A stretch of 64,000 nt of DNA. It comes from Advenella sp. S44. GTDB lineage: Bacteria; Pseudomonadota; Gammaproteobacteria; Burkholderiales; Burkholderiaceae_B. The notes under the pieces were generated by a model that searched no databases, was not told the DNA's origin, and saw nothing but the letters and a program-made list of their open reading frames with translations. Below are positions 45,420 to 62,883 of the stretch, one piece after another (position 1 is the first letter of the stretch; each line of letters starts with the position of its first letter). The DNA lies in contig NZ_NEXS01000009.1 in assembly GCF_002810445.1 (NCBI RefSeq), forward strand, positions 310,001 through 374,000, given 5' to 3'. The position numbers and the translations under genes are program-made.

Positions 45420-46622
45420 TTACACGCGTTCGATAATAACAGCGGCGCCCTGGCCGACACCAATACACATGGTGCACAAGGCATACCTGCCACCAGTGCG
45501 CTGCAATTGATACATCGCGGTTGTTACCAGGCGCGCGCCGGAGGCGCCCAGCGGATGCCCCAGGGCGATCGCGCCACCATTAGGATTGACATGAGCGGCA
45601 TCGTCCGGCAGGCCCAGGTCACGCGTCACGGCCAGGGCTTGAGCGGCAAAGGCCTCATTGAGCTCGACCACATCCATTTGCTCAATGTTCATGCCCGTCT
45701 TTTCCAGTACCTTGCGCACCGCAGGAATCGGGCCCACGCCCATCACGCGCGGCGCGACCCCGGCCACAGCCATACCCACCACGCGAGCCTTGGGCTTGAG
45801 GCCGTATTTTTTGACGGCTTCATCCGAGGCCAGCAATAATGCGCAGGAACCGTCATTGACGCCCGATGCATTACCCGCAGTCACACTGCCGTCAGCGCGC
45901 ACCACGCCCTTGAGTTTGGTCAGCGCCTCGGCCGAGGTAGCACGCGGATGCTCGTCGGTATCGACCACGACCGGATCGCCCTTGCGTTGCGGCACGCTGA
46001 CAGGAATGATCTCGTCCTTGAAAATGCCATCTGCAATAGACTTTGCTGCACGCTGCTGACTGCGCAATGCAAAGGCATCCTGATCGGCGCGGGAAATTTT
46101 ATAATCGTCAGCGACATTCTCAGCCGTTTCCGGCATGGAATCCACGCCAAAGGCGGCTTTCATTTTCGGATTAATGAATCGCCAGCCGATTGTCGTATCT
46201 TCAATTTTAGCGGTACGCGCAAACGCAGACTCGGCTTTGCCCATGACAAACGGGGCACGCGACATGCTCTCGACACCACCGGCAATCATCAGGTCAACTT
46301 CACCGGACTTGATCGCCCGCGCAGCTGTCCCTACCGCATCCAGACTGGAGGCGCAAAGCCGATTCAGTGTCGCGCCGGGCACCTGTACATCAATGCCTGC
46401 CAGCAAAAGCGCCATACGCGCCACATTGCGGTTATCTTCGCCAGCCTGATTCGCGCAGCCATAAATGACATCGTCCACTTTGCTCCAGTCTACGCCCGGA
46501 TTGCGTTCCATCAATGCCTTGATCGGCAGCGCAGCCAGGTCATCGGTGCGAACGGTGGACAGGCCGCCGCCGTAACGGCCAATAGGCGTACGGACAGCAT
46601 CACAAATATAAGCGTTATTCAT
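45420..46622 (-). CDS. pcaF: 3-oxoadipyl-CoA thiolase
   Basis: 400-residue thiolase. The acylated Cys is in [18 protein letters not shown], the His in [16 protein letters not shown], and the second Cys in [11 protein letters not shown]. The sequence [19 protein letters not shown] and the [20 protein letters not shown] segment are characteristic of PcaF/PaaJ thiolases, which split 3-oxoadipyl-CoA into succinyl-CoA and acetyl-CoA. It follows the pcaIJ CoA-transferase genes. GAGG lies 7 bp before the ATG. Confidence 0.92.
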
Positions 46623-46670
46623 ACATTTCCTCTGTGTTATTTCAATCTGATACTGGTATCTTGCTGCCGG

Positions 46671-47312
46671 TCAGGCGAAGATCAATTTTGCGCCGGTCAG
46701 CGACTGTAGTTCCTCGTTTGTGATATCAACTAGTTTTTCCACAACTGTCATACCGGCTGCTGTAACTTCCAGCACCGCAATATCGGTATAGACACGGCTG
46801 ACGACGCCCAGGCCTGTCACCGGCAGCGTGCATTTCTCCAGAATCTTGGGCGAGCCATCCTTTGCATTGTGTTCCATCAGGATATATACCTTGCGGGCGC
46901 CGACTGCCAGATCCATGGCCCCGCCCACCGCAGGTGGCTCTCCGGGCCGGCCCAGCGACCAATTGGCCAGATCGCCGCCGGCAGATACCTGCATGCCGCC
47001 CATGATGCACAGATCCAAGTGTCCGCCGCGCATAATGGCAAACGAATCGACATGATGAAAGAATGCGCCGCCGGTTAGCAATGTCACGGGCTTTTTGCCG
47101 GCATTGATGAGCTCTGCATCAATGTCGTCCCCTGTGGCGGCCGGGCCCATGCCCAAAATACCGTTCTCGCTATGCAAAAGAATCTCATCTTCTGCCTTCA
47201 GGTAATTGGCAACCAGCTCCGGCATGCCGATGCCGATGTTGACATAACTGCCGGGAGCGATATCTTTGGCCAGACGTTCGGCCATTTGGTTTCTGTTCAA
47301 TTTATTCATCAT
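46671..47312 (-). CDS. pcaJ: 3-oxoadipate CoA-transferase subunit B
   Basis: 213-residue beta subunit of a class I CoA transferase. The catalytic Glu is in LLHSENGILGMGP, and GGHLDLCIMGGMQVSAGGDL is typical. With PcaF next door, 3-oxoadipate is the most likely substrate; acetoacetate CoA-transferase (AtoAD/ScoAB) is the main alternative by sequence alone. It lies 9 bp after pcaI; two adjacent ATG codons (47312, 47309) could serve as start. Confidence 0.88.
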   Translation of the reverse strand: MMNKLNRNQMAERLAKDIAPGSYVNIGIGMPELVANYLKAEDEILLHSENGILGMGPAATGDDIDAELINAGKKPVTLLTGGAFFHHVDSFAIMRGGHLDLCIMGGMQVSAGGDLANWSLGRPGEPPAVGGAMDLAVGARKVYILMEHNAKDGSPKILEKCTLPVTGLGVVSRVYTDIAVLEVTAAGMTVVEKLVDITNEELQSLTGAKLIFA

Positions 47313-47321
47313 ATGACCTGC

Positions 47322-48002
47322 TTAACTGGAGACGGCCGGATTGGCGACTTGAACAATCCGATTCACGAAAATTCCGGGGGTGATAATCGTTTCCGGATCA
47401 AGCTGGCCCAGTTCGACTTTCTGCTTGACCTGCACAATCGTCGTTTTGGCCGCCATGCACATGACCGGCCCGAAATTGCGAGCCGCCTTGCGATAAACCA
47501 GATTACCCCAGCGATCCCCCTTCTCGGCCAGGACCAGCGCAAAGTCGCCATGGATCGGCTTTTCAAATACATAGTTCACGCCATCAATATTGCGTGTTTC
47601 CTTGCCTTTTGCCAGATCCGTGCCGTAGCTGGTTTTAGTATAAAACCCGCCAATACCGGCACCGGCCGCATGCAGCCGCTCGGCAATCGTGCCTTGCGGG
47701 ACACATTCGAGCTCGATTTTTCCTTCCTTGTACATTTCATTGAAGACATAGGAATGAGATGCCTTAGGAAAGGAACAGATCATCTTACGAACACGGCCTG
47801 CCTTGATCAGCGCAGCCAGGCCCGTATCGTGGTTGCCCGCATTGTTGTTGACGACGGTCAGCTCTTTCGCGCCCTGATCAATCAGGGCATGGATCAGCTC
47901 TGTCGGATGGCCCGCGCCACCGAATCCGCCGATAAGCACGGTGGCGCCGTCAAAGACATCGGCGAGCGCCTCGTGGATATCGTCCAAAAATTTATTAATC
48001 AT
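47322..48002 (-). CDS. pcaI: 3-oxoadipate CoA-transferase subunit A
   Basis: 226-residue alpha subunit. VLIGGFGGAGHPTELIHALI holds the glycine-rich CoA-binding loop and PQGTIAERLHAAGAGIGGFY is the conserved second motif. Together with PcaJ it moves CoA from succinyl-CoA to 3-oxoadipate. It lies 86 bp downstream of the CoA ligase gene on the same strand, close enough to share a transcript with the dicarboxylate cluster. Confidence 0.88.
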   Translation of the reverse strand: MINKFLDDIHEALADVFDGATVLIGGFGGAGHPTELIHALIDQGAKELTVVNNNAGNHDTGLAALIKAGRVRKMICSFPKASHSYVFNEMYKEGKIELECVPQGTIAERLHAAGAGIGGFYTKTSYGTDLAKGKETRNIDGVNYVFEKPIHGDFALVLAEKGDRWGNLVYRKAARNFGPVMCMAAKTTIVQVKQKVELGQLDPETIITPGIFVNRIVQVANPAVSS

Positions 48003-48088: not shown

Positions 48089-49738
48089 TTACCCAAGCGC
48101 GCGCCACAAGACTTTTCCCGACGAGGTTTTCGGCAGCGCGTCTGTGAAAACGACAAGTCGTGGCGCTTTGTACGAAGCCATTTTTTCGCGGCACCAGTCA
48201 ATAATGTCCTGTTCGCTGACACGGCCGCGACTGTTTTCTCGCAACACCACCCAGGCCTTGACGGTTTCACCGCGTTTTTCGTCAGTCACGCCCACGACGC
48301 AGGCTTCGAGAATCGCCGGGTGGGCATACATCATGGACTCCACTTCAGCGGGCCAGACCTTGAAACCCGAGGCATTGATCATACGCTTGAGCCGGTCCAC
48401 CATAAAATAGTAGCCGTCCTCATCCATGCGCCCGAGATCTCCGGTGCGTAAAAAGCGTTTGCCATCAATGGTAATGAAGGCCTCGGCCGTTGCTTGCGGA
48501 CTGTTCCAATAGCCCTGCATCAGTTGCGGACCATGCACCACGATCTCACCGACTTCGCCCTGTGGCACCTCCTGCAGCGTGGCCGGATCAACAATGCGTG
48601 AATCCACATCAAAAATCGGAATACCCAGGCATTGCCGTTTCGGATGCCGCTCCGGATTGATATGCGATGGCGCCATGACTTCAGACATTCCGTAACCTTC
48701 AATATACGTGAGTCCGAAATCACGCTGCAGTTTTTCTGCAACCGCTTCCGGCATGGCTGCCCCGCCGCCACTGATGCGCGCAATACTGGACAGGTCATAG
48801 TCATGCAAATCGGGCATGGCCAGCAAGTCCACCACCATCGGTGCGATAAGCGCCAGCCGGCCAATACGATACCGTTCGATGCATTGGGCCGCCACCACCC
48901 GATCCCAGCGCGTCATGATAACGATAGTTGCACCCAGATAGATTGCGCTGTTCATGACGCCTTCCATCCCGGTTACATGGAAAAACGGCAACACGCCAAG
49001 ATACACTGCGTCCTGGTTTCCGCCGTCGTACCACACCGCGGCCGATACCGTGTTGTACATGGTGGAGCGATGCGTGTGGATACAGCCTTTTGGATGTCCG
49101 GTGGTGCCCGAGGTATAGGGCATGACGGCCATGTCTGCGGACAGCGCGCTTGACGACAGAGGCACATAGCCGCCAGCCAGGACATCGCGCCAAAGCACCA
49201 GTCCATCGCCAGTCAGTGGCTGCGCCGGCGTGGCAACAACATCAGGTACACGCTGGTCTGTACCCGCCTGAGGCAGGTAATCGTGATAGGCAGCAACCAG
49301 CTTGTGCGCGGGCGCAAACGCGCCAAGCGTAGCAACCTGGTCGTGCAATTCCTGTCCGTAAATGATGACAGTGGCGCCGGTATCACGAATGTAATGTTGC
49401 AGCTCGTCGGCACGATTCATCGGGTTAACCGGCACAACCACCGCGTCTGCCCGCAGTATGGCGTAATAGGCTAGCACAAACTGCGGGCTGTTTTGCATAT
49501 ATAACAACACCCGATCACCCTTGCGCACGCCGCAGTCAGACTGCAAAAATCCGGCCAGCGCCTGCACCTGTTCTAGCACCTGTCCGTAACTATAGGTCGC
49601 GCCGTAATACACCAGACATGTTTTCTGCGGATAGCGTTGCGCCGATATCTCCAGATTGGCGTGCAGGGCCGTTTCGGGAATACTGAGCGTGCTGCTGCGC
49701 CCACGCGGCCAGACGGCGGAGTAATCGGGCCTGGTCAT
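48089..49738 (-). CDS. Acyl-CoA ligase (AMP-forming), PimA-like
   Basis: 549-residue adenylate-forming enzyme. The P-loop motif is [18 protein letters not shown], the A5 motif EGYGMSEV, the hinge [19 protein letters not shown], and the catalytic Lys lies in [11 protein letters not shown] at the C-terminus. It activates a carboxylic acid to its CoA ester; with its neighbours a medium- or long-chain dicarboxylate is likely. The ATG at 49738 overlaps the thiolase stop by 4 bp (ATGA); the longer ORF from 49783 is not supported. Confidence 0.88.
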
Positions 49739-50913
49739 GCCACTTCGAACAACCCGGCTGCGCCCTGACCGCCCCCGATGCACATGGTGACCACGACATA
49801 TTTGACACCTCGGCGCCTGCCCTCGATCAGAGCGTGGCCGACCATGCGCGCTCCCGACACCCCGTACGGGTGGCCCACAGCGATCGCACCGCCATTAACG
49901 TTGAGCCGGTCATCGGGAATGCCCAGTTTGTCGCGACAATACAGTACCTGGCAGGCGAACGCCTCGTTCAATTCCCACAAACCGATATCATCCACCTTCA
50001 GCCCGGCCCGCTGCAGCAGGCGCGGCACCGCAAAGACCGGCCCGATTCCCATTTCATCGGGCTCACAACCAGCAACGGCAAATCCGCGGAAGATGCCCAA
50101 TGGTGCCAGGCCACGCTGGCGCGCCAATTCAGCATCCATCAACACGCATGCTGATGAACCATCCGAAAACTGGCTGGCATTACCGGCAGAAATCGACCCT
50201 TTCGGAAATACCGGACGAATCCTGGAAACCGCTTCGAGCGTCGTATCTGGCCGGATGCCTTCATCTGCAGCAATGGTGACTTCACGGCGGGATATGCCGC
50301 CAGTGGCTTTATCAAAGACACTCATGACAGTTGTCATGGGTACGATTTCCTCACTGAACAGGCCTTCTGCCTGCGCACGGGCTGCGCGCTGCTGACTGCG
50401 GGCGCCGTATTCATCCTGCACCTGTCGCGATATACCATAACGCGTGGCAACGGTCTCTGCCGTCTGCAACATGCTCCAGTACACTTCGGGCTTATGCTCG
50501 CGCAACCACGGATCCTGACGCATGAGTGTATTGGCGTCATTCTGCACGCAGGAAATGCTTTCGACACCGCCTGCCACCAGAACCGGCACCTGGTCGACAA
50601 TAATGCGCTGCGCCGCCATGGCGATTGCCTGCAGCCCCGAAGAGCAGAAGCGATTGACTGTGACACCGGCGCAACTTACCGGCAATCCGGCGCGCAAGGC
50701 AATGGCGCGGGCAATATTGCCGCCCGTTGTTCCTTCGGGCAAGGCCGAGCCGATAATGACATCTTCGACTTCAGCCGGATCAATGCCGGCACGCGCCACC
50801 GCGTGCGACACCGAATGGGCGCCCAGGGTTGCGCCGTAGGTCATATTGAATGCGCCTTTCCAGGATTTTGCCAATCCGGTGCGCGCAGTGGAAACGATTA
50901 CTGCTTCTCTCAT
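49735..50913 (-). CDS. Acetyl-CoA acyltransferase (thiolase), PimB-like
   Basis: 392-residue degradative thiolase. The nucleophile is in [19 protein letters not shown], the His in [17 protein letters not shown], and the second Cys in [13 protein letters not shown]. It differs from PcaF and lies in the operon with the fused hydratase/dehydrogenase and the CoA ligase, as pimB does in the Rhodopseudomonas pim operon. TGGAG precedes the ATG. A possible terminator lies between it and the upstream gene. Confidence 0.88.
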
Positions 50914-51125: not shown

Positions 51126-53210
51126 TTATTTAAGTGGCTCACCGCTTTGGGCATGTTCGTCCAGCAACGCAGCCACCTCCCACGCCTGCGGACGGGCTGA
51201 GTTTGCGCCGAACTGTCGTAGCGCCCGGACAACATTGAACAGGCCTGCCTGCTGCGCATAGTGCATGGGGCCACCACGATGTAGCGGAAAGCCATAGCCA
51301 TTCAGGTACACAATGTCGATGTCCGACGCTCGCAGTGCAATACCCTCTTGGAGAATCTTCGCGCCCTCATTGGCCAGCGCATAAACGCAACGCTCAACAA
51401 TTTCCTGGTCGCTGATCTTGCGTGGTGTGACGCCCTTTTCCTGACGGAAAGTCTCGATCAGTTTTTCCACCTCAGGGTCAACCTGCGGCTTGCGATCGCC
51501 GGCCACATAGCGATACCACCCTGCACCCGTTTTCTGCCCGAAGCGGCCCGCCTCGCACAGGCGATCGGCGACGACCTCTTCATACCCGGCTGGATCGGCT
51601 TGCTTCTTGCGCTTGCGAATCGCCCAGCCGATATCCAGTCCGGCCAGGTCGCCAACACGATACGGCCCCATGGCAAAGCCGAAGTTTTCCAGTGCACGGT
51701 CAATCTGCGAAGGCGCGGCGCCCTGCAGCATTACCTCATCGGCAGCATCACGATAGGCATACAGCATGCGATTGCCGATAAAGCCATCGCATACACCCGA
51801 GACAACCGGCTTTTTGCCGATCTTTTTGCCCATATCGATACATGTGGCCAGCACGTCCTTGGCGGTTTTGTCACCACGTACAATTTCCAGCAGTTTCATC
51901 ACGTTGGCCGGACTGAAAAAATGCAGTCCGATCACGTCCTGCGGACGTTTGGTAAACGCCGCAATCTGATCGACGTCCAGTGTCGACGTGTTGGAAGCCA
52001 GAATCGCTCCGGGCTTGATCACACGATCCAGTTCGCGAAATACCACTTCCTTGACACCCATATCCTCAAAGACCGCTTCGATGACCAGGTCTACTTCGTT
52101 CAATGCGTCATAGGACAGCGTCGTGCTGAGCAGATTCATACGCTCTTCCACTTGCTCGGCCGTAATCCGCCCTTTCTTCATGGTGTTTTCATAGTTCTTG
52201 CGGATAGTCGCCACGCCACGCTGCAGCGCCTCTTCTTTTTGCTCAAGCAGGACCACGGGTATACCGGCATTCAGGTAATTCATACTGATGCCGCCACCCA
52301 TGGTGCCGGCGCCGATCACGCCGACCCGGGCGATCGGACGCAAGGGCGTATCGGCCGGCACATCGGGAATTTTGGTGGCCGCGCGTTCAGCCGCGAACAC
52401 ATGGCGCAACGCCAATGATTCTGGCGAAGCAAGCAGTTGGGTAAAGTGCCGGCGCTCAAAGGCCAGACCCTCGTCAAAAGGCATCTGAGTGCTGGCCGCG
52501 ACGGCCTCAACGCAGGCTGCCGGCGCAGGAAAGCGCGCCGAAGCGGCCTTGGCCGCATTGCGGGCATTGAGCAACAAGGCATCGGCATCCGCATCGTTGA
52601 CCTTCAGGTCACGGACCCGTTTGCGCGGCGCATCTGCCGCCAGCCCTTTGGCAAAGTCAATCGCCGCCGCCTGGGGATCGCTATCGACCACTTTATCGAA
52701 CAAAGCAGTCTCCACCAATGACGCTGCCTTGACAATCTGGCCTGACACAATCATGTTCAGCGCTTTTTCCAGACCCACAACGCGCGGCAGCCGCTGGGTC
52801 CCGCCTGCACCCGGCAGAATACCCAGCTTGACTTCGGGCAGACCCACCTTGGCAGCAGCGGCAACAACACGATAGTGCGCACCCAGCGCGAGCTCCAGCC
52901 CGCCCCCAAGGCATACGCCATTGATGGCAGCGACAACCGGCTTGGCCGATTGCTCCAGCACTTCTATGACCGTGCGCAGTGTGGGCGCCTGATGCGCCTT
53001 GGGCGTGCCAAACTCGGTCACATCTGCGCCCCCCGAAAACGCTCTCTCGGATCCGCCCAGCACGATAGCGCGGATCGCCGCATTGCTGTTGGCGCGATCA
53101 ACACCTTCAACGATGGCCTTGCGCAACCCATGGCTAAGCCCGTTTACGGGCGGATTATTGAAAGTAATAACGGCAACCCCGTCCTGTTCTTTGTAAAACG
53201 CATGCTCCAT
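51126..53210 (-). CDS. Fused enoyl-CoA hydratase/3-hydroxyacyl-CoA dehydrogenase, PimF/FadB-like
   Basis: 694-residue bifunctional beta-oxidation enzyme. The hydratase half has ALGGSERAFSGGADVTEFG-like oxyanion residues, NGVCLGGGLELALGAHYRV, and LPEVKLGILPGAGGTQRLPR with the catalytic Glu. The dehydrogenase half has the NAD motif RVGVIGAGTMGGGI and GLHFFSPANVMKLLEIV with the catalytic His. It is the first gene of the minus-strand operon. The ATG at 53210 has AGGAG 8 bp upstream; the ORF continues upstream for 135 codons without family similarity. Confidence 0.92.
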   Translation of the reverse strand: MEHAFYKEQDGVAVITFNNPPVNGLSHGLRKAIVEGVDRANSNAAIRAIVLGGSERAFSGGADVTEFGTPKAHQAPTLRTVIEVLEQSAKPVVAAINGVCLGGGLELALGAHYRVVAAAAKVGLPEVKLGILPGAGGTQRLPRVVGLEKALNMIVSGQIVKAASLVETALFDKVVDSDPQAAAIDFAKGLAADAPRKRVRDLKVNDADADALLLNARNAAKAASARFPAPAACVEAVAASTQMPFDEGLAFERRHFTQLLASPESLALRHVFAAERAATKIPDVPADTPLRPIARVGVIGAGTMGGGISMNYLNAGIPVVLLEQKEEALQRGVATIRKNYENTMKKGRITAEQVEERMNLLSTTLSYDALNEVDLVIEAVFEDMGVKEVVFRELDRVIKPGAILASNTSTLDVDQIAAFTKRPQDVIGLHFFSPANVMKLLEIVRGDKTAKDVLATCIDMGKKIGKKPVVSGVCDGFIGNRMLYAYRDAADEVMLQGAAPSQIDRALENFGFAMGPYRVGDLAGLDIGWAIRKRKKQADPAGYEEVVADRLCEAGRFGQKTGAGWYRYVAGDRKPQVDPEVEKLIETFRQEKGVTPRKISDQEIVERCVYALANEGAKILQEGIALRASDIDIVYLNGYGFPLHRGGPMHYAQQAGLFNVVRALRQFGANSARPQAWEVAALLDEHAQSGEPLK

Positions 53211-53534
53211 GGCGATGTCTCCTGTTCCGGCCTGATGAAAAGACGGCACGTTGTCACTACGCCTTTTTGTTTCGCATAGCAGAATTTCCGTACCCTGATA
53301 ATTCTTTGATAATACTCCGTGCCACCCACGAGTGTAAAGCGAATTGTAGGCTGAAAGCATTTCCATGTTTTTGATATCCCTGTCTTTCCATTTAATCCAT
53401 TGCTCGCTATAATCAATTCCATAAATCAATTTTGTATTCCACAGTGCAGAATAAATAAAAATAAGCCAGCCGCTGACCGCAACGGCGGCGGTTTTGCTTG
53501 CGCTGCTCAATAATTTGAAAAGGAATTTCCGTCC
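53211..53534. other. 324-bp divergent promoter region of the dicarboxylate cluster
   Basis: AT-rich region between the fused beta-oxidation gene and the first acyl-CoA dehydrogenase. It contains the IclR-type motif at 53436-53452. No gene is supported. Confidence 0.6.
53436..53452. promoter_or_regulatory. Candidate IclR-family operator, site 1
   Basis: ATTCCACAGTGCAGAAT, an imperfect palindrome (ATTC..CA-G-TG..GAAT), lies 83 bp before the acyl-CoA dehydrogenase start. It shares 15 of 17 positions with the site upstream of the IclR gene (57355-57371). Confidence 0.6.
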
Positions 53535-54731
53535 ATGGATATCCGCTACACCACTGAACAACTGGCCTTTCGCGATTCCGTTCGCGCATTCCTGCAAACC
53601 GCAGTGCCTGCCCATGTTCGTGACAAAACGCGGCAGTGCCTGCCGCTGTCAAAAGACGAACGCGAGCAATGGCAGCGCAGTCTGTTTGAACAAGGCTGGG
53701 GCGCCCCGTCATGGGCGGTGGCGTTCGGCGGCACCGGCTGGGACGCGGTGCAACGCCATATCTTTGAAGAAGAATGTGCCGCCTTCGGCGCGCCGGAACA
53801 ATTGCCTTTCGGACTGAAAATGGTCGCGCCCGTGATCCAGAAATATGGCAGCAAGGAACAACAGGACCGGTTTCTTCCGCGCATATTGTCCGGCCAGGAC
53901 TGGTGGTGCCAGGGGTATTCCGAACCGGGTGCAGGCTCTGACCTGGCCTCGCTCAAAACAACGGCGGTGCGCGATGGCGACGACTATATTGTCAATGGCC
54001 AGAAAACCTGGACTACGCTGGCTCAGCATGCCGACTGGATTTTCTGCCTGGTGCGCACCAATCCCGAAGTGCGCAAGCAGGAAGGCATTTCATTCCTGCT
54101 CATCGACATGAAAACGCCAGGCATCACGGTGCGCCCCATCATCATGCTGGACGACGGGCATGAAGTCAATGAAGTCTGGCTTGAGAATGTGCGCGTCCCC
54201 GCTGCCAATCTGATCGGCGAAGAAAACAAAGGCTGGACCTACGCCAAGTTTCTCTTGGGCCACGAAAGAACCAATATCGCCCGCGTTGGCCGTTCCAAGG
54301 CGGCGCTGCAGCAGGTCAAAACGGCGGCCGCCCGGCAAATCGGCAATGACGGCCAGCCGCTGTTACACGATATGCGCTTTCGCGATCGCCTGGCACAGGT
54401 CGAGCTGGACTTGATGGCACTTGAAATAACCAATCTGAAATTGATTTCGCAAGAAGGCGGCGGCCACGCGCCCGGGCCGGAAGCCTCCATTTTGAAAGTC
54501 AAAGGTTCCGAAATCCAGCAGGCTATTACTGCGCTGGCATCGCAGGTCGCCGGCCCGTATGCGGCGGCCCATATTTTGCCGGACGATCAGGTACACGAAC
54601 TTTCCGCAGCGTTCCCGCAGGAGCAGGAACACATGACGGCACAATATTTCAATTACCGCAAAACAACCATCTACGGCGGATCCAATGAAGTGCAGAAAAG
54701 CATTATCTGCCGGATGATTCTGGGACTGTAA
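53535..54731 (+). CDS. pimC: Acyl-CoA dehydrogenase, pimeloyl-CoA dehydrogenase large subunit-like
   Basis: 398-residue FAD enzyme. Motifs WWCQGYSEPGAGSDLASLKT and DDYIVNGQKTWTT form the FAD/substrate region. At the usual C-terminal catalytic position (YEGT in classical enzymes) it has YGGSNEVQ, so that Glu is absent; a Glu in FLLGHERTNIARV falls where isovaleryl-type enzymes keep their base. This pattern and the pairing with the next gene fit PimC-type large subunits. AAGGA lies 10 bp before the ATG. The name rests on gene order and motif resemblance. Confidence 0.85.
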   Translation: MDIRYTTEQLAFRDSVRAFLQTAVPAHVRDKTRQCLPLSKDEREQWQRSLFEQGWGAPSWAVAFGGTGWDAVQRHIFEEECAAFGAPEQLPFGLKMVAPVIQKYGSKEQQDRFLPRILSGQDWWCQGYSEPGAGSDLASLKTTAVRDGDDYIVNGQKTWTTLAQHADWIFCLVRTNPEVRKQEGISFLLIDMKTPGITVRPIIMLDDGHEVNEVWLENVRVPAANLIGEENKGWTYAKFLLGHERTNIARVGRSKAALQQVKTAAARQIGNDGQPLLHDMRFRDRLAQVELDLMALEITNLKLISQEGGGHAPGPEASILKVKGSEIQQAITALASQVAGPYAAAHILPDDQVHELSAAFPQEQEHMTAQYFNYRKTTIYGGSNEVQKSIICRMILGL

Positions 54732-54785
54732 ACGGCCCGCCATCCCTTCCCGATACAGAACAGAATACGCTACGGAGTCATCCAC

Positions 54786-55949
54786 ATGGACTTTACCTTT
54801 ACCGAAGAACAGCTTGCATTGCAGGATACGCTTACCCGCTTTATCGACAAAGACTATACATTCGAACAGCGCCGGAAAAACCTTGCCGCGAACCGTCATG
54901 AAAACGAAGGCGCCTGGGCTGCCTTTGCGGAACTGGGCATACTGGCCCTGCCCTTTGCCGAACAGGACGGCGGCCTGGACGGCACAGCACTGGACACCTA
55001 CCTGGTGATGCGCTCGTTGGCCAAAGGACTCATTCTTGAACCCTACATCAGCACGGTCGTACTATCAGGCTCGTTCCTGCAGCAGCACGCCACACCGCAA
55101 CAACGCAGCGTACTCATTCCCGCCATTGCCGATGGCTCGACCCGCTTTGCATTTGCACATTATGATGTGGAGTCACGCTACCAGGAGTCGCGCATCCATA
55201 CGCGGGCAGTAAAGCAGGCAGACGAGTGGATATTGAATGGTCACAAGGCCATGGTGATTGACGCCCCGGTATGCGACCACTGGCTGATCACTGCCAGGAC
55301 AGCCGGTCAGGACCATGACAGCCATGGCCTGTCGGTGTTTCTGGTCAAGGCCGGCCATCCGGGCATCAGGCTCAAATCTTACCGGCTGCATGATGGCCAT
55401 CAGGCGGCAGACCTTGTCATGGAAAACGCCCGCTTGCCACAAGAAGCCCTTATCGGCGCCGCAGATACGGCTTACCCGGCCATCATGCAGGCGCTGGCCG
55501 CCACCCACGCTGCGCTCTCGGCCGAAGCGGCCGGGTTGATTGAAGCGCTGAACACAGCCACTCTGGAATATCTGAAAACACGAAAGCAGTTTGGCGTGGC
55601 CATCGGTACCTTCCAGGCCCTGCAGCATCGCATGGCCGATATGGCGATTGCGGCAGAACAGGCAACCTCCATGGCGCTGTTGGCCGCCATCAGCCTGGCG
55701 AGCGACGATCCGCAAGAGCGCATCGTCAAAGCTGCCGGCGCAAGAGTGCTGCTGGCCAGACTGTCCCGCCACGTCGGCGAAGAAGCCGTGCAACTGCATG
55801 GCGGCATGGGCGTGACCGATGAGCTGATCGTTCCGCATTATTTCAAACGCGTCACAGTGCTAAACAGCCAATATGGCGATCCGGACTTTCATTTACAACG
55901 ATATAGTGATAGCTTGCTGACTTCGCAAAAAGATAATGACGCCGCTTAA
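54786..55949 (+). CDS. pimD: Acyl-CoA dehydrogenase, pimeloyl-CoA dehydrogenase small subunit-like
   Basis: 387-residue acyl-CoA dehydrogenase-fold protein. It begins MDFTFTEEQLALQDTLTRF and has ELGILALPFAEQDGG, HKAMVIDAPVCDHWL and RKQFGVAIGTFQALQHRMAD, with QLHGGMGVTDELIVPHYFKR near the end. The classical YEGT catalytic segment is missing. It resembles PimD-type small subunits that pair with a catalytic large subunit, so a heteromeric enzyme with the upstream gene (54 bp away) is likely. GGAG precedes the ATG. Confidence 0.85.
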   Translation: MDFTFTEEQLALQDTLTRFIDKDYTFEQRRKNLAANRHENEGAWAAFAELGILALPFAEQDGGLDGTALDTYLVMRSLAKGLILEPYISTVVLSGSFLQQHATPQQRSVLIPAIADGSTRFAFAHYDVESRYQESRIHTRAVKQADEWILNGHKAMVIDAPVCDHWLITARTAGQDHDSHGLSVFLVKAGHPGIRLKSYRLHDGHQAADLVMENARLPQEALIGAADTAYPAIMQALAATHAALSAEAAGLIEALNTATLEYLKTRKQFGVAIGTFQALQHRMADMAIAAEQATSMALLAAISLASDDPQERIVKAAGARVLLARLSRHVGEEAVQLHGGMGVTDELIVPHYFKRVTVLNSQYGDPDFHLQRYSDSLLTSQKDNDAA

Positions 55950-55964
55950 GGAAACACCCGTAAC

Positions 55965-56387
55965 ATGATTGACCAGAATATTCCCGAACACTATCGACTG
56001 CTGAACCGTTTCAGCACCTTTTCAGACCTGACCGGGCCATTTTATGAAAAGGTGATCGACGGACGCCACGTGGGTATCGGCATCCGGGTAAAGCCGACGC
56101 ATTTGAACAAGGTCGGCGTCGCTCACGGCGGCCTTGTCATGACCGTTGCCGATAATGCATTTGGCGATGCCATTCTCCACGCCCATGACGAGCCGGTGGC
56201 TTTCGTGACCATGTCGCTGACCTGCGAATTCATGTCACCCGTGCGCGAAGGCGACTGGCTCGAAGCGAGCGTGGATATTCAACGCAAGGGCAAACGGGTC
56301 GTATTTGCCAATTGTGATTTGCGCGTAGGCGACAAGAAAGTGGCATTTGCCACCGCCCTGTTTTCCATGATCGACAAAAAAGCCTGA
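55965..56387 (+). CDS. PaaI-family hotdog thioesterase
   Basis: 140-residue hotdog-fold protein. KVGVAHGGLVMTVADNAFGDA is the family's HGG motif with the catalytic Asp, and VTMSLTCEFMSPVREGDWLEA follows. It probably hydrolyses stalled acyl-CoA intermediates to free CoA during dicarboxylate breakdown. It lies 15 bp after the small dehydrogenase subunit gene, with AAGGA about 11 bp before the ATG, and ends the plus-strand operon opposite the convergent IclR gene. Confidence 0.85.
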   Translation: MIDQNIPEHYRLLNRFSTFSDLTGPFYEKVIDGRHVGIGIRVKPTHLNKVGVAHGGLVMTVADNAFGDAILHAHDEPVAFVTMSLTCEFMSPVREGDWLEASVDIQRKGKRVVFANCDLRVGDKKVAFATALFSMIDKKA

Positions 56388-56513
56388 TCCGCGTTCGCCG
56401 ATTGCGGGAGCCTATTTTCAGGCTGTCCGCAGGACCGCGGCCTGTCCCGCGATGTCGTATTCTGGCTTGCTACACTGCTGTCTGTCGCGCGATGCCTCAG
56501 CGCGCCTGGGCGA

Positions 56514-57335
56514 TCACGCAGGCTGGCCCACCGTCTCTTTCAATTTGCGCACGACTTCCAGCAGTTTGGGTCGCGCCTCTTCAAGCAGATATTGCTCGGA
56601 CAGGCTGAAGGACGGTCCGCCGCAACTGATTGCCATGATCGGAAACTGACGCCCCAGGTTCAATCCTACCGCGATGGCGTTGACATCTTTTTGCCAGTCG
56701 CCGAACGAACAGGTGCATCCGAGCCGTTCATAGTCTTCCAATGAAGAGGCGATCCCGGTCATCAAGGCTTCACTGGCCAGTTCATCCAGTTCCCGCACCC
56801 GCCCGAAAACTTCTTCGCGCTCCTGCAGCGGCACTTCTGCCAGATAGGCCCTACCCATGGCGGTAGACACAATGGGAATGCGAGCGCCCACGTCCATGCT
56901 CAGCGTGAGCGCAGACCGGCTGCGACAGTTTTCCAGATACAGCATGGACAAACGGTCGCGTGTCCCCAGGGTCACCATGCCCTGGGTTTCGTCCGCCAGC
57001 GCCTGCATGAGCGGCCGGGCCACCTGGCGAATATCGAGTTTTGCCAGCAGGCCCACGCCCAGCGACAAGGTGGCCATACCCAGCTGATATTTACTGGTCT
57101 CTTCATTGTGAGTCAGATAGCCGAGCTTTGTCAGGGTATAGGTAATGCGTGAAACCGTTGATTTAGGCAGCTTGCAGCGGCTGGCGATTTCCTGATTACC
57201 CAGCACCTTATTGCCAGAACGAAAGCAGGCCAGTACATCAAGCCCACGGGCGATTGCCGTGATGAAGTGGCGATCGTCCTCATATTCACTGGCCAAAGGC
57301 GGCTTGTTAATGGTTTTCCTGATGTCAGATGTCAT
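56514..57335 (-). CDS. IclR-family transcriptional regulator
   Basis: 273-residue regulator. The N-terminal helix-turn-helix is in ITAIARGLDVLACFRSG and LPKSTVSRITYTLTKLGYL; the C-terminal effector domain has TLGTRDRLSMLYLENCRS and GIASSLEDYERLGCTCSFGD. It sits between two catabolic operons, converging on one and divergent from the other. Identical-type sites at 53436, 57355 and 57534 suggest it controls both and itself. I chose the ATG at 57335; the longer frame from 57389 would run through the operator-like site. Confidence 0.9.
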   Translation of the reverse strand: MTSDIRKTINKPPLASEYEDDRHFITAIARGLDVLACFRSGNKVLGNQEIASRCKLPKSTVSRITYTLTKLGYLTHNEETSKYQLGMATLSLGVGLLAKLDIRQVARPLMQALADETQGMVTLGTRDRLSMLYLENCRSRSALTLSMDVGARIPIVSTAMGRAYLAEVPLQEREEVFGRVRELDELASEALMTGIASSLEDYERLGCTCSFGDWQKDVNAIAVGLNLGRQFPIMAISCGGPSFSLSEQYLLEEARPKLLEVVRKLKETVGQPA

Positions 57336-57354
57336 AAGTAATTTCGCAGGCACA

Positions 57355-57371
57355 ATTCCAATGTGCAGAAT
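57355..57371. promoter_or_regulatory. Candidate IclR-family operator, site 2
   Basis: ATTCCAATGTGCAGAAT begins 20 bp upstream of the IclR start codon and matches site 1 at 15 of 17 positions; negative autoregulation is the natural reading. Confidence 0.6.
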
Positions 57372-57533
57372 ATAAGGCAAAATGGCCATGCCCCACGCAT
57401 TTAGCGCTTCACATTCGCCAAAAAGTATAATAATACCCGTTTTATACTATGTTTAAAAAGAAAATTCCATTGCCCGCTGCTCCAGAGTAGTCTATTATTG
57501 AACGCGGATCGTTTGTACCTGTATAGCGTTAAT

Positions 57534-57550
57534 GTACCGCAATGCAGAAT
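57534..57550. promoter_or_regulatory. Candidate IclR-family operator, site 3
   Basis: GTACCGCAATGCAGAAT matches site 1 at 13 of 17 positions, with the right half TGCAGAAT fully conserved. It lies about 230 bp before the nitronate monooxygenase-like gene. Confidence 0.45.
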
Positions 57551-57781
57551 ATAGTTTCGAATTTTTTGGTCGACCCGGCGCATAGCAACGGGCGCGAACG
57601 GGTTTCGGGACTTTGCTGTTGAGACTTTGCGAAGTCTGCGACGTCAGCAGTACACCGGTGTTGCGCTAGCGTCGCATTTGATTGTCACGCGAGCTTCGCT
57701 TACGGCCGTTTTCTCGGGCGATGTATTTGTCGGTTCACGATAGGCATTTCCCATGATATTTTCTGATCGAGGTTTGTATTT

Positions 57782-58753
57782 ATGACTCATCCTGTCGTAC
57801 AAAATTTGCGCGCTAAAATGTCGCTTCCCGTGATTTGCTCTCCCATGTTTATCGTGTCCAATCCGGCTATGGTGATTGAGCAGTGCAAAAGCGGGATGAT
57901 CGGATCATTTCCGGCACTCAATGCCCGTCCGGCCTCACTGCTGGACGATTGGCTGGCACAAATTACCACCACGCTGGATGAGGAACGCAAGCAGCACCCT
58001 GAACAAAAAATCGCGCCTTTTGCCGTCAATCAGATCATTCATACGTCAAACGACAGGCTTGACCATGATATGCAGGCCTGCGAAAAATATAAGGTCCCTG
58101 TCATTATTACCAGCCTGCGTGCGCCCACAGACGTGGCGTCGGCCGTGCATGGCTGGGGCGGGCTGGTCTTTCATGATGTCACGACCATTCGCCATGCCGA
58201 AAAAGCCCTTGAGGCGGGCGTTGACGGGCTGATCCTGGTGGCCGCAGGCGCGGGGGGCCATGCCGGTACGCTCAGCCCTTTCGCGCTGGTATCCGAAATT
58301 CGTAAATTTTACGATGGCCCCGTTATTCTTTCCGGCTCCATCACCAATGGCGATGCCATTCTGGCAGCCCAGGCCATGGGCGCCGATTTTGCGTATATCG
58401 GCACTCGCTTTATCGCCAGCGTAGAGGCCAATGCCGATCCGCGCTACAAGCAGATGATTGTCCAGGCGAGCGCCAAGGATATTTTGTATACCCCGTTTTT
58501 TACTGGCATTCCCGGCAATTACCTGGCGCCGAGCATTACGGCGTCCGGACTGGATCCCGACAATCTGAAAGTGGAAGAAAAATCGTCCACCAATTTTGGC
58601 TCGACGCGGGTCAAGGCGTGGAAGGATGTCTGGGGCGCCGGTCAGGGCGTGGGCACCATTGACTCGATCGATCCGGTTGCCACCATCGCACAACGACTGC
58701 AACAGGAATATCAGACGGCGCGCCAGCGCCTTGAGATCGGGCAAGCGTCATGA
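57782..58753 (+). CDS. Nitronate monooxygenase (2-nitropropane dioxygenase) family protein
   Basis: 323-residue FMN-dependent TIM-barrel protein. VAAGAGGHAGTLSPFALV has the GGHxG motif with the His used as base in class I nitronate monooxygenases; ILSGSITNGDAILAAQAMGA and YIGTRFIASVEA bind FMN phosphate. The family also includes FabK-like enoyl reductases, so the reaction is not certain. It heads an operon with an enoyl-CoA hydratase (4-bp overlap) and an acyl-CoA dehydrogenase. GAGG lies before the ATG. Confidence 0.87.
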   Translation: MTHPVVQNLRAKMSLPVICSPMFIVSNPAMVIEQCKSGMIGSFPALNARPASLLDDWLAQITTTLDEERKQHPEQKIAPFAVNQIIHTSNDRLDHDMQACEKYKVPVIITSLRAPTDVASAVHGWGGLVFHDVTTIRHAEKALEAGVDGLILVAAGAGGHAGTLSPFALVSEIRKFYDGPVILSGSITNGDAILAAQAMGADFAYIGTRFIASVEANADPRYKQMIVQASAKDILYTPFFTGIPGNYLAPSITASGLDPDNLKVEEKSSTNFGSTRVKAWKDVWGAGQGVGTIDSIDPVATIAQRLQQEYQTARQRLEIGQAS

Positions 58754-59499
58754 GCGAGGCCACCACAACCACCCTGCTCGTCAATATTAGCCAGCGGGTT
58801 ATGACACTGACTATCAACCGGCCCGCACAGAAAAACGCGCTGGATAGCGCCACCTATGGTGCGTTGACTGCGGCATTGACACAGGCTAACGCAAGAGATG
58901 ACTTGCATGCCATCGTACTGACCGGCGCCGGCGGCTATTTCACCGCAGGCAACGACCTGCACGATTTTGTCAAAGCGCCCGAAGGCGCCAGTCCTGGCCT
59001 GACGTTTTTGAAGGCAATCAGCAAAGTCAACATCCCCATTATCGCAGCCGTTGAAGGCGGCGCCATCGGCATTGGCGTCACGATGCTACTGCATTGTGAT
59101 TTTGTGGTCGCCGGCACCGGCACGCAATTTCGCATTCCCTTTGTCCCCCTGGGTCTATGTCCCGAAGGCGCATCCAGCCTGTTGCTCGCCCGTTATGTCG
59201 GCATCCGCAAGGCCAATGAATGGCTTTATCGCGGTATGCCGTTTACCGCAGAAGAGGCCCAGCAGGCAGGACTGATAAACCGGGTTGTTGTCGCCGGCCA
59301 GGCAGAAAGCACCGCCCAGGAACTGGCCCGCGAAATGGCCGATCAGTCCAGGCTGGCACTGACCAGCACCAAGGCGCTGATGCAGCGCGCATCAGCGCAA
59401 GAGGTTGCCGAAACCCTGGACGCCGAACGCGAACGTTTCGCGCAATGTCTGGCTTCGCCCGAAGCCCGGGCGGCGTTCAGTCGCTTTCTGGCAAAATAG
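58750..59499 (+). CDS. Enoyl-CoA hydratase/isomerase family protein
   Basis: 249-residue crotonase-fold protein. The oxyanion-hole segments are LTGAGGYFTAGNDLHDFV and AAVEGGAIGIGVTMLLHCDF. At the second catalytic position, FRIPFVPLGLCPEGASSLLL keeps one Glu-like position only (PEGASS), while the first Glu position is replaced, a pattern seen in isomerases and other crotonase relatives. So hydration of an enoyl-CoA is likely but not assured. The ATG overlaps the upstream stop by 4 bp. Confidence 0.85.
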   Translation: MSEATTTTLLVNISQRVMTLTINRPAQKNALDSATYGALTAALTQANARDDLHAIVLTGAGGYFTAGNDLHDFVKAPEGASPGLTFLKAISKVNIPIIAAVEGGAIGIGVTMLLHCDFVVAGTGTQFRIPFVPLGLCPEGASSLLLARYVGIRKANEWLYRGMPFTAEEAQQAGLINRVVVAGQAESTAQELAREMADQSRLALTSTKALMQRASAQEVAETLDAERERFAQCLASPEARAAFSRFLAK

Positions 59500-59532
59500 C
59501 ACGCTCATTTTTTTATAGGATAAATCACATTT

Positions 59533-60687
59533 ATGATTCGCGATCAGCAAACCCAGACCCTTCTTGAAGAGGGCGTCCGCCGCTTCGTCAACGAAGTACT
59601 TGTTCCCGCCGAAAACGAAGTTGCTGAAACCGACGAGATCCCTCAGAAAATACGCGAACAGATGAAAGAGCTTGGCCTGTTTGGCCTTGCGTTGCCCGAG
59701 GAATATGACGGCCTGGGTTTGACCATGGAAGAAGAAGCACGCATCGCCATGGAACTGGGCCGCACGTCGCCCGCATTCCGTTCCTACATTGGCACAAACA
59801 ACGGTATTGGCTCTTCGGGTATTGTGATTGACGGCACGCCGGAGCAAAAGCAAAAATACCTCCCGCGGCTGGCTTCGGGCGATCTGATCGGCTCTTTTGC
59901 ACTGACCGAACCGGAGGCCGGATCCGATGCAGGGTCCCTGCGCACCACGGCCGTGCGTGACGGCGATGATTACGTTATCAACGGCACCAAGCGCTTTATT
60001 ACCAATGCCCCGCATGCAGGCATCTTTACCGTGATGGCGCGCACCAGTCCCGAAGTCAAAGGCGCATCTGGCATTTCCGCGTTCATCGTCGAGGCTGGCA
60101 CTCCCGGCCTGACGCTAGGCAAACGCGACCAGAAAATGGGCCAGAAAGGCGCTCACACCTGTGATGTTATTTTTGACAACTGCCGCGTACCGGCAAGCCA
60201 GCTGATTGGCGGCAGGGAAGGCGTCGGATTCAAGACCGCCATGAAGGTATTGGACAAAGGCCGCCTGCATATATCGGCCGTTGCCATTGGCGCGGCCAAA
60301 CGCATGCTGGCTGACGCATTGAACTTTGCCAAGGACCGCAAGCAGTTCGGGCATCCACTGGTTGATTTTCAATTGATTCAAGGTATGCTTGCCGATAGCA
60401 AAACCGATATTTACGCGGCCGAATGCATGTTGCTTGACGCTGCACGCCGACGCGACAACGGTGAAAGTGTATCGGCACTGGCTTCTTGCGTGAAATACTT
60501 TGCCACCGAAATGTGCTGTCGCGTTGCCGACAGGGCGGTACAAATACATGGCGGCTCGGGATATATTTCGGAATACGCCATTGAACGCTTTTATCGCGAT
60601 GTGCGCCTGTTCCGTCTGTACGAGGGTACGTCGCAAATTCAGCAAATCATCATCGCCAAGGATCTGATTAAAGAAGGTAATATCTGA
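59533..60687 (+). CDS. Acyl-CoA dehydrogenase
   Basis: 384-residue flavoenzyme with the full classical set: SFALTEPEAGSDAGSLRTTA, GDDYVINGTKRFITNAPHAG, DRKQFGHPLVDFQLIQGMLA, QIHGGSGYISEYAIERFYRD and the catalytic Glu in RLYEGTSQIQ. It oxidises an acyl-CoA at the alpha-beta bond and passes electrons to ETF. Unlike the paired dehydrogenases at 53535-55949 it should act as a homomer. AGGA lies 12 bp before the ATG. Third gene of the NMO operon. Confidence 0.93.
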   Translation: MIRDQQTQTLLEEGVRRFVNEVLVPAENEVAETDEIPQKIREQMKELGLFGLALPEEYDGLGLTMEEEARIAMELGRTSPAFRSYIGTNNGIGSSGIVIDGTPEQKQKYLPRLASGDLIGSFALTEPEAGSDAGSLRTTAVRDGDDYVINGTKRFITNAPHAGIFTVMARTSPEVKGASGISAFIVEAGTPGLTLGKRDQKMGQKGAHTCDVIFDNCRVPASQLIGGREGVGFKTAMKVLDKGRLHISAVAIGAAKRMLADALNFAKDRKQFGHPLVDFQLIQGMLADSKTDIYAAECMLLDAARRRDNGESVSALASCVKYFATEMCCRVADRAVQIHGGSGYISEYAIERFYRDVRLFRLYEGTSQIQQIIIAKDLIKEGNI

Positions 60688-61899: not shown

Positions 61900-62136
61900 C
61901 GACTGCGTCCGCATCCAAATGCCGGTCCTGCCAGACCAGCCATATATTGCCACTTCATCATCCCGCCACGCACCATTTCCATATCGTTCAAATTTTTTGA
62001 ATGGTCCCAACAAAACAGATGAAACACATTGACCCTGCGATGCAGCATAATATTAACTATGCAAGTACCACGAGCGATTATGGTATACAAACGAACGATC
62101 TTTCCACTGAATATTTTTTTAAAGGGTTTTACTGAT

Positions 62137-62788: not shown

Positions 62789-62846
62789 TGCCAACACAGG
62801 AAAATGAACCGGTAATCGACTCGTGACGATCTCTGTGTTCTGCTGT

Positions 62847-62883
62847 GCAAAAGCCCGCCAGTCAACACTGTGCGGGCTTTTGC
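62847..62883. terminator. Intrinsic hairpin terminator after the nitroreductase gene
   Basis: GCAAAAGCCCGC (62847-62858) pairs perfectly with GCGGGCTTTTGC (62872-62883). The T-run is within the stem, as in many bidirectional terminators. Confidence 0.65.

Follow-up and report, generated by a model that had tools for sequence, protein, structure and literature searches.

Gene content of the locus

We analyzed a 64,000-nucleotide (nt) stretch of Advenella sp. S44 (contig NZ_NEXS01000009.1, positions 310,001 to 374,000; "the window," with coordinates counted from its first base). Within it, the gene for an IclR-family regulator (iclR) lies on the minus strand between a pim-like dicarboxylate cluster and a plus-strand row of genes for a nitronate monooxygenase (nmo)-like flavoenzyme, an enoyl-coenzyme A (CoA) hydratase (ech), and an acyl-CoA dehydrogenase. 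Four matching 17-bp sites lie at the promoters of this locus. Judging from their sequence and distribution, one regulator very likely binds them all and would thereby join the genes for dicarboxylic acid breakdown to the nmo operon.

The iclR product (56514 to 57335, minus strand) has both the helix-turn-helix (HTH) domain of its family (PF09339, 56.7 bits; cut-off, 22) and the C-terminal effector domain (PF01614, 74.7 bits; cut-off, 24). We chose 57335 as the start; an in-frame ATG at 57389 would place one of the sites, at 57355, inside the gene. The best NCBIfam model for the protein is that of the beta-ketoadipate regulators PcaR/PcaU/PobR, and pcaIJF-like genes are found in the cluster. 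However, with 117 bits for TIGR02431, the protein falls far under the subfamily cut-off of 284.75, and we rejected this identity.

On the minus strand, the pimF gene (51126 to 53210; FadB/FadJ models match best, under cut-off) is followed by a pimB-like thiolase gene (49735 to 50913; NF005494, 720.8 bits; cut-off, 615) and by an acyl-CoA ligase gene in the pimA position (48089 to 49738; NF006181, 849 bits; cut-off, 705), for which the PimA model scores 273.3, under its cut-off of 705.6. Behind the ligase gene are pcaI/pcaJ-like CoA-transferase and pcaF thiolase genes (45420 to 48002; TIGR02429, TIGR02428, and TIGR02430 over cut-off), which would belong to the pimF transcript. On the plus strand are genes for two acyl-CoA dehydrogenase subunits (53535 to 55949), whose best matches are the PimC and PimD models. 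Since both stay under cut-off (TIGR03204, 495.4 versus 623.85 bits; TIGR03203, 353.4 versus 652.7 bits), we call these genes pim-like. A paaI-like hotdog thioesterase gene follows (55965 to 56387; TIGR00369, 38.4 bits; cut-off, 36.6). Beyond iclR, also on the plus strand, come the gene for the nmo-like, FabK-like flavin mononucleotide (FMN) enzyme (57782 to 58753) and, behind it, those for the hydratase-like protein and a third acyl-CoA dehydrogenase (58750 to 60687). We take the nearest counterpart of this gene set to be the pimFABCDE dicarboxylate operon of Rhodopseudomonas palustris. Counterparts of pimF, pimB, pimC, and pimD are present here, but they are split into two divergent units with the nmo operon attached, and the PimA, PimC, and PimD models remain under cut-off.

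Four related sites in two divergent promoter regions

The initial annotation had reported three similar 17-mers, at 53436, 57355, and 57534, and we found their letters verbatim on the plus strand at these coordinates. It had also called the 53436 site nearly palindromic. This holds, with 12 of 16 noncentral positions agreeing with the reverse complement, and for this site only, the 57355 and 57534 17-mers matching at 8 and 10 of 16. A core, TGCAGAAT, is common to the three and occurs six times on both strands of the window, three of the copies being these sites. On sequence grounds, the three are variants of one palindrome, RTTCYGCANTGCRGAAY, of the IclR-family group 1 operator type. Our analysis added a fourth site, at 53269. 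With it counted, the two divergent regions, pimF|pimC and iclR|nmo, hold two sites each, one per promoter.

Ranked within the window by a weight matrix (described below), the putative operator at the nmo promoter, GTACCGCAATGCAGAAT (57534 to 57550; 22.5 bits), came first, followed by those at the pimF promoter, GTTTCGCATAGCAGAAT (53269 to 53285; 18.1 bits), and the pimC promoter, ATTCCACAGTGCAGAAT (53436 to 53452; 15.2 bits). A probable degenerate operator, ATTCCAATGTGCAGAAT (57355 to 57371; rank 9), lies directly upstream of the likely iclR start. Thirteen of 17 bases are identical in four Advenella strains for the pimC site and 15 of 17 for each of the other three; no strand is assigned to any site.

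The group 1 consensus of Suvorova and Gelfand 2021 (PMC8222616) is a 17-bp palindrome, GTTYCRYW3RYGRAAC or WTTYCRYW3RYGRAAW, with subgroups GTT-11-AAC and WTT-11-AAW. The sites described here share with those regulons the palindrome form and the location upstream of the regulator gene and neighboring catabolic genes. Tandem sites 20 bp apart, which are common in the family, occur in a few relatives here (L014, L015, L039, and L121). The half-site differs, being mostly RTTCYGCA.

The matrix was built from unique sites of non-Advenella loci and contained no Advenella sequence. These were 54 of the 57 loci that had been retrieved by the IclR protein alone, so the set is independent of the sites noted in the window. 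Forty-eight sites, spread over 33 of the 54 loci, differ from RTTCYGCANTGCRGAAY at no more than one position and follow the group 1 form, of which the window's own sites are imperfect versions. When 30 column-permuted palindromes were run on the same loci, 29 gave no sites and one gave two; the consensus was fixed after inspection of these loci, so that the count is not blind, and many of the loci come from related Paraburkholderia. In 60 simulated 64-kb sequences, places at 22.5, 18.1, and 15.2 bits averaged 0, 0.03, and 0.1 in number, with no simulated score above 20.8. Across the genome, 27 places match RTTCYGCANTGYRGAAY with at most two mismatches. Four of them fall in these 4.1 kb, where 0.026 would be expected (Poisson P of about 2e-8, post hoc).

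The strongest match outside the cluster, at C16:633166 (L065:1501-1517), is a lone palindrome, GTTCTGCAACGCAGAAT (24.7 bits), with a lactate-permease gene about 250 bp downstream. We set it aside as a regulon member after finding no copy with at most one mismatch in nine other searched genomes of the genus. Naming further members from the matrix alone would be unsafe.

Conservation and promoter geometry in Advenella

The IclR protein of the window is 92 to 95% identical to those of the Advenella strains L007, L008, and L038. Alignments were made between the window and three other Advenella. In the pimF|pimC region, 28 of 34 site bases are identical in all four strains versus 149 of 288 bases elsewhere; for the iclR|nmo region, the counts are 30 of 34 versus 140 of 412. 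Predicted promoter elements, among other stretches, are equally conserved, so the sites do not stand out by conservation alone. The distance from the best predicted -10 element to the start of the site in the four strains is 22 nt for pimC, 23 to 24 nt for pimF, 34 to 35 nt for nmo, and 55 to 57 nt for iclR, these promoters being consensus predictions only. No such geometry emerged for 50 oriented sites from the 57 loci, among which no offset collects more than 6 near-consensus -10 boxes. We also considered looping of the DNA between phased sites and rejected it, as the 32 distinct distances between paired sites have no 10.5-bp phase (Rayleigh p of about 0.24).

The nmo leader (57551 to 57781, about 230 nt) is some 75 nt longer than in three other Advenella. 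No 14-mer of the extra stretch recurs elsewhere in the window.

Co-occurrence of the motif and iclR

We surveyed 200 genomes of the family, calling orthologs of the IclR protein at an E value of at most 1e-70. The exact motif occurred in 17 genomes, the ortholog in 26, and both in 11; that is, 11 of 26 ortholog genomes had the motif versus 6 of 174 others (Fisher p of 1.6e-7). Eight of the 11 double-positive genomes carry an exact site within 5 kb of iclR on the same contig, and a reversed control pattern was found in 1 of the 200.

The best 30 nmo loci from these genomes, taken with flanks of about 1.5 kb, comprised 12 with an adjacent iclR and 18 without. Eleven of the 12 carry a site of at least 11 bits between the two genes: six close Advenella (this genome included), four same-genus loci with 73 to 74% IclR identity, and L094, where the site is weak. 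The sole one without a site is L091, at the same place as the Pelistega suis locus L043. The recognition helix is LSNSTVSR in L043, L091, and L094, where most aligned proteins have LPKSTVSR or a near variant, and this alteration is consistent with the weak or missing sites in these loci. The relative L137 (IclR 73 to 74% identical) has two sites in each of the two divergent regions, all four at 14.2 to 20.6 bits. Relatives in which iclR stays next to nmo thus, in the main, have the motif at the corresponding promoters, as the idea put forward in the initial annotation would predict.

None of the 18 nmo loci without an adjacent iclR reached 11 bits, and two reached 8.0; 17 of them come from ortholog-free genomes, and the genome of the remaining one (L098) has an ortholog elsewhere. 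We also searched 80 of the 174 ortholog-free genomes for pimC and found it in 25, giving 30 loci. None of these has a site of at least 11 bits (best, 9.5), with the limit that their pimC proteins are 51 to 66% identical to that of the window and some may be paralogs.

Among the six motif-positive, ortholog-free genomes, four (L129, L130, L134, and L135, from another genus) have the exact palindrome 80 to 95 bp from the start of a distinct IclR gene, 35 to 37% identical to ours. No IclR-like match lay within 5 kb in the remaining two genomes or around a further site found in one of these four.

Two Advenella genomes (L118 and L119) have a second IclR gene, 45 to 46% identical, beside acyl-CoA ligase-like and nmo-like genes, with AAACTGCAATGCAGTAT in front. 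A different but related palindrome, ATTCTTCATTGCTGAAG, lies upstream of pimC in L139, L140, L143, and L163, whose genomes have no such IclR gene. Variants of it occur in L142, L149, L150, and L152; L168:8378 was noted with these, and in L168 a LysR-type gene is near the cluster.

Linkage of pim and nmo genes beyond the motif

Of the 25 ortholog-free genomes that have pimC, 12 carry nmo-like genes no more than 15 kb away from it, 11 of them within 5 kb; counted among the nmo matches listed, 12 is a lower bound. One cluster without iclR (L170) contains counterparts of nitroreductase, acyl-CoA dehydrogenase (81%), nmo, paaI, pimD, pimC, pimF, and pcaF. The gene neighborhood therefore links pim and nmo without the regulator, and the metabolic link does not depend on the motif alone. 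Relocated nmo genes retain a site. In L114, a perfect palindrome is followed by two TctC-type receptor genes, nmo, and ech in a row, and in L021 (a metagenome-assembled genome labeled Acidiferrobacteraceae), a site of 17.1 bits separates a pcaF-like gene from nmo-ech-iclR. Sites also stand in front of an 82 to 83% relative of the third acyl-CoA dehydrogenase (L122 and L127) and before a 74% relative of the second receptor gene (L123).

The nmo-like flavoenzyme

The nmo-like protein belongs to the nitronate monooxygenase superfamily by its Pfam score (PF03060, 79.3 bits; gathering score, 28), and nitronate activity is putative. FabK chains head the sequence search against solved structures, and 13 of the first 14 fold matches are also FabK. 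The structure model, made from six sequences, has a mean predicted local distance difference test (pLDDT) score of 65, and the fold search gave template modeling (TM) scores of about 0.5 to 0.6, so we treat it as only supportive. A GGHAG motif is invariant in six sequences. However, the FabK enoyl-acyl carrier protein reductase model is far under its cut-off (TIGR03151, 91.3 versus 453.1 bits), and the nmo-like gene, unlike those of the FabK and nitronate monooxygenase flavoproteins it resembles, sits in acyl-CoA degradation clusters. By sequence and by a modest model, the protein is nearer FabK than the characterized nitronate monooxygenases, which suits a thioester substrate.

It is possible, though we offer this tentatively, that the protein is a FabK-fold FMN enoyl-thioester enzyme acting on a dicarboxylyl-CoA intermediate, e.g., reducing an unsaturated diacyl-CoA, rather than a nitronate detoxifier. 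With the hydratase and dehydrogenase, it could then form an unrecognized branch of diacid beta-oxidation, and that branch would be tied to the pim genes by both regulon and gene linkage.

Weak candidate sites farther downstream

Two further matches, both uncertain and without assigned strand, lie beyond the nmo row. ACCCTGCGATGCAGCAT (62032 to 62048; 4.7 bits; 14 of 17 bases identical in the four Advenella) stands before a nitroreductase-like gene, and GTTCTGCTGTGCAAAAG (62837 to 62853; 11.5 bits; 16 of 17 identical) stands before a TctC-type receptor gene. The latter overlaps a terminator-like hairpin, which alone could account for part of its conservation, and as a further regulon site it is confounded by this hairpin. 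An AT-rich block around ATTCAAAT-TTTTGAA (61980 to 62010), upstream of the nitroreductase-like gene, is conserved in the four Advenella and is perhaps another regulator's site.

A model for the regulon

IclR-family proteins can activate or repress. We think it likely that the IclR-family protein encoded among the four sites uses them as its operators and that, as a repressor released by a ligand, it controls a regulon for dicarboxylyl-CoA beta-oxidation. The sequences supply the sites, their conservation, their co-occurrence with the gene, and the gene linkage, and from these we infer the rest. One operator would serve each of the four promoters in the two divergent pairs. In Advenella, the operators begin 22 to 57 nt past the predicted -10 element and so would fall at the start of the transcript; a dimer or tetramer sitting there would obstruct transcription. 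The effector may be a substrate or intermediate, such as a dicarboxylate, an oxo-dicarboxylate, or its CoA ester, that would bind the C-terminal domain and free the protein from its operators. Release would then induce the genes for dicarboxylate beta-oxidation together with nmo, ech, and the acyl-CoA dehydrogenase gene, within transcript limits that are presumptive, as is the substrate of the nmo operon. The single regulon proposed in the initial annotation, joining pimeloyl-CoA-type beta-oxidation to the nmo operon, is supported by the sites, by the co-occurrence of motif and iclR, and by the linkage of pim and nmo genes.

Several findings weigh against this model. The weakest part is self-repression of iclR. 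The site at its promoter, which the initial annotation had included, is present at 2.8 to 4.2 bits in six close Advenella loci, and its conservation in these strains stands. However, the site is degenerate, at 4.2 bits it would not be called by the matrix on its own, and its position is not kept in relatives with 73 to 74% IclR identity. In L092, L093, and L095, the second site adjoins nmo instead, at about 26 bp from the nmo start, and about 200 to 230 bp separate iclR from the other site. There was no site with at most one mismatch in 21 of the 54 non-Advenella loci, and no exact site in 15 of the 26 ortholog genomes (this one included), the latter because their sites are imperfect. Outside Advenella, the position downstream of the -10 element finds no support. 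Coding DNA contains background copies of the loose motif, and some matches elsewhere in the genome score as high as the sites described. From the sequences, this IclR group is not the only one to use the motif. HTH_IclR matches number 41 in the genome, the weakest of them perhaps being other HTH proteins.

The same protein could act at the same sites as an activator, or as both activator and repressor. A passage of PMC12543098 states that either mode occurs among IclR-family proteins, but sites downstream of predicted -10 elements, as in Advenella, would be unusual for an activator, even with promoters drawn from consensus predictions, and we regard this as unlikely. It is highly improbable that a different IclR-family protein of this genome, recognizing the same motif, is the one that uses the sites. 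The 41 HTH_IclR matches and the distinct IclR gene beside the exact motif in four ortholog-free genomes leave room for it, but the sites flank this gene, the motif at the nmo and pimC promoters vanishes with this ortholog, and the genome has no second match at an E value of 1e-70 or better. Since the motif is not confined to one IclR group, it is adjacency and co-loss that assign the sites to this protein. Chance resemblance among 17-mers selected visually, or promoter conservation that involves no regulator, might be suggested by the loose genome matches (19 of 20 examined among the 23 outside the cluster lie inside open reading frames of at least 100 amino acids by a crude call, two of them, L072 and L083, no more than about 55 nt from its 5' end; the remaining one is intergenic) and by the equal conservation of other promoter parts, but it is scarcely credible given the cross-genus matrix and simulations, the positive versus negative nmo and pimC loci, and the clustering of four matches in 4.1 kb. 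Strong matches thus concentrate at these promoters, although loose ones occur in coding DNA elsewhere, which in the main answers the concern, raised with the initial annotation, that the motif might be mere coding-DNA background.

Significance

The repressor model describes an ordinary kind of regulon. In the literature searched, which did not extend to supplementary tables, we found no recognized description of an IclR regulator for this gene set. The main text of PMC8222616, in the parts available, contains no pimeloyl, dicarboxyl, or nitronate term, and the regulon may be among the 181 groups of its supplementary tables. According to passages of PMC12543098, PimCD-like pairs of beta-proteobacteria show fitness phenotypes on dicarboxylic acids. 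The regulators reported there are of the LysR and TetR types, along with an IclR repressor of the PcaR type; those passages do not mention the regulator described here.

Taken together, these data provide a candidate regulator, a defined putative operator, and a testable target list for beta-proteobacterial dicarboxylic acid catabolism, which is of interest for the reuse of polymer monomers. They also give one lead on a flavoenzyme family that is possibly misannotated: a family annotated as "nitronate monooxygenase" is tied here to acyl-CoA degradation, which argues against using that annotation at face value.

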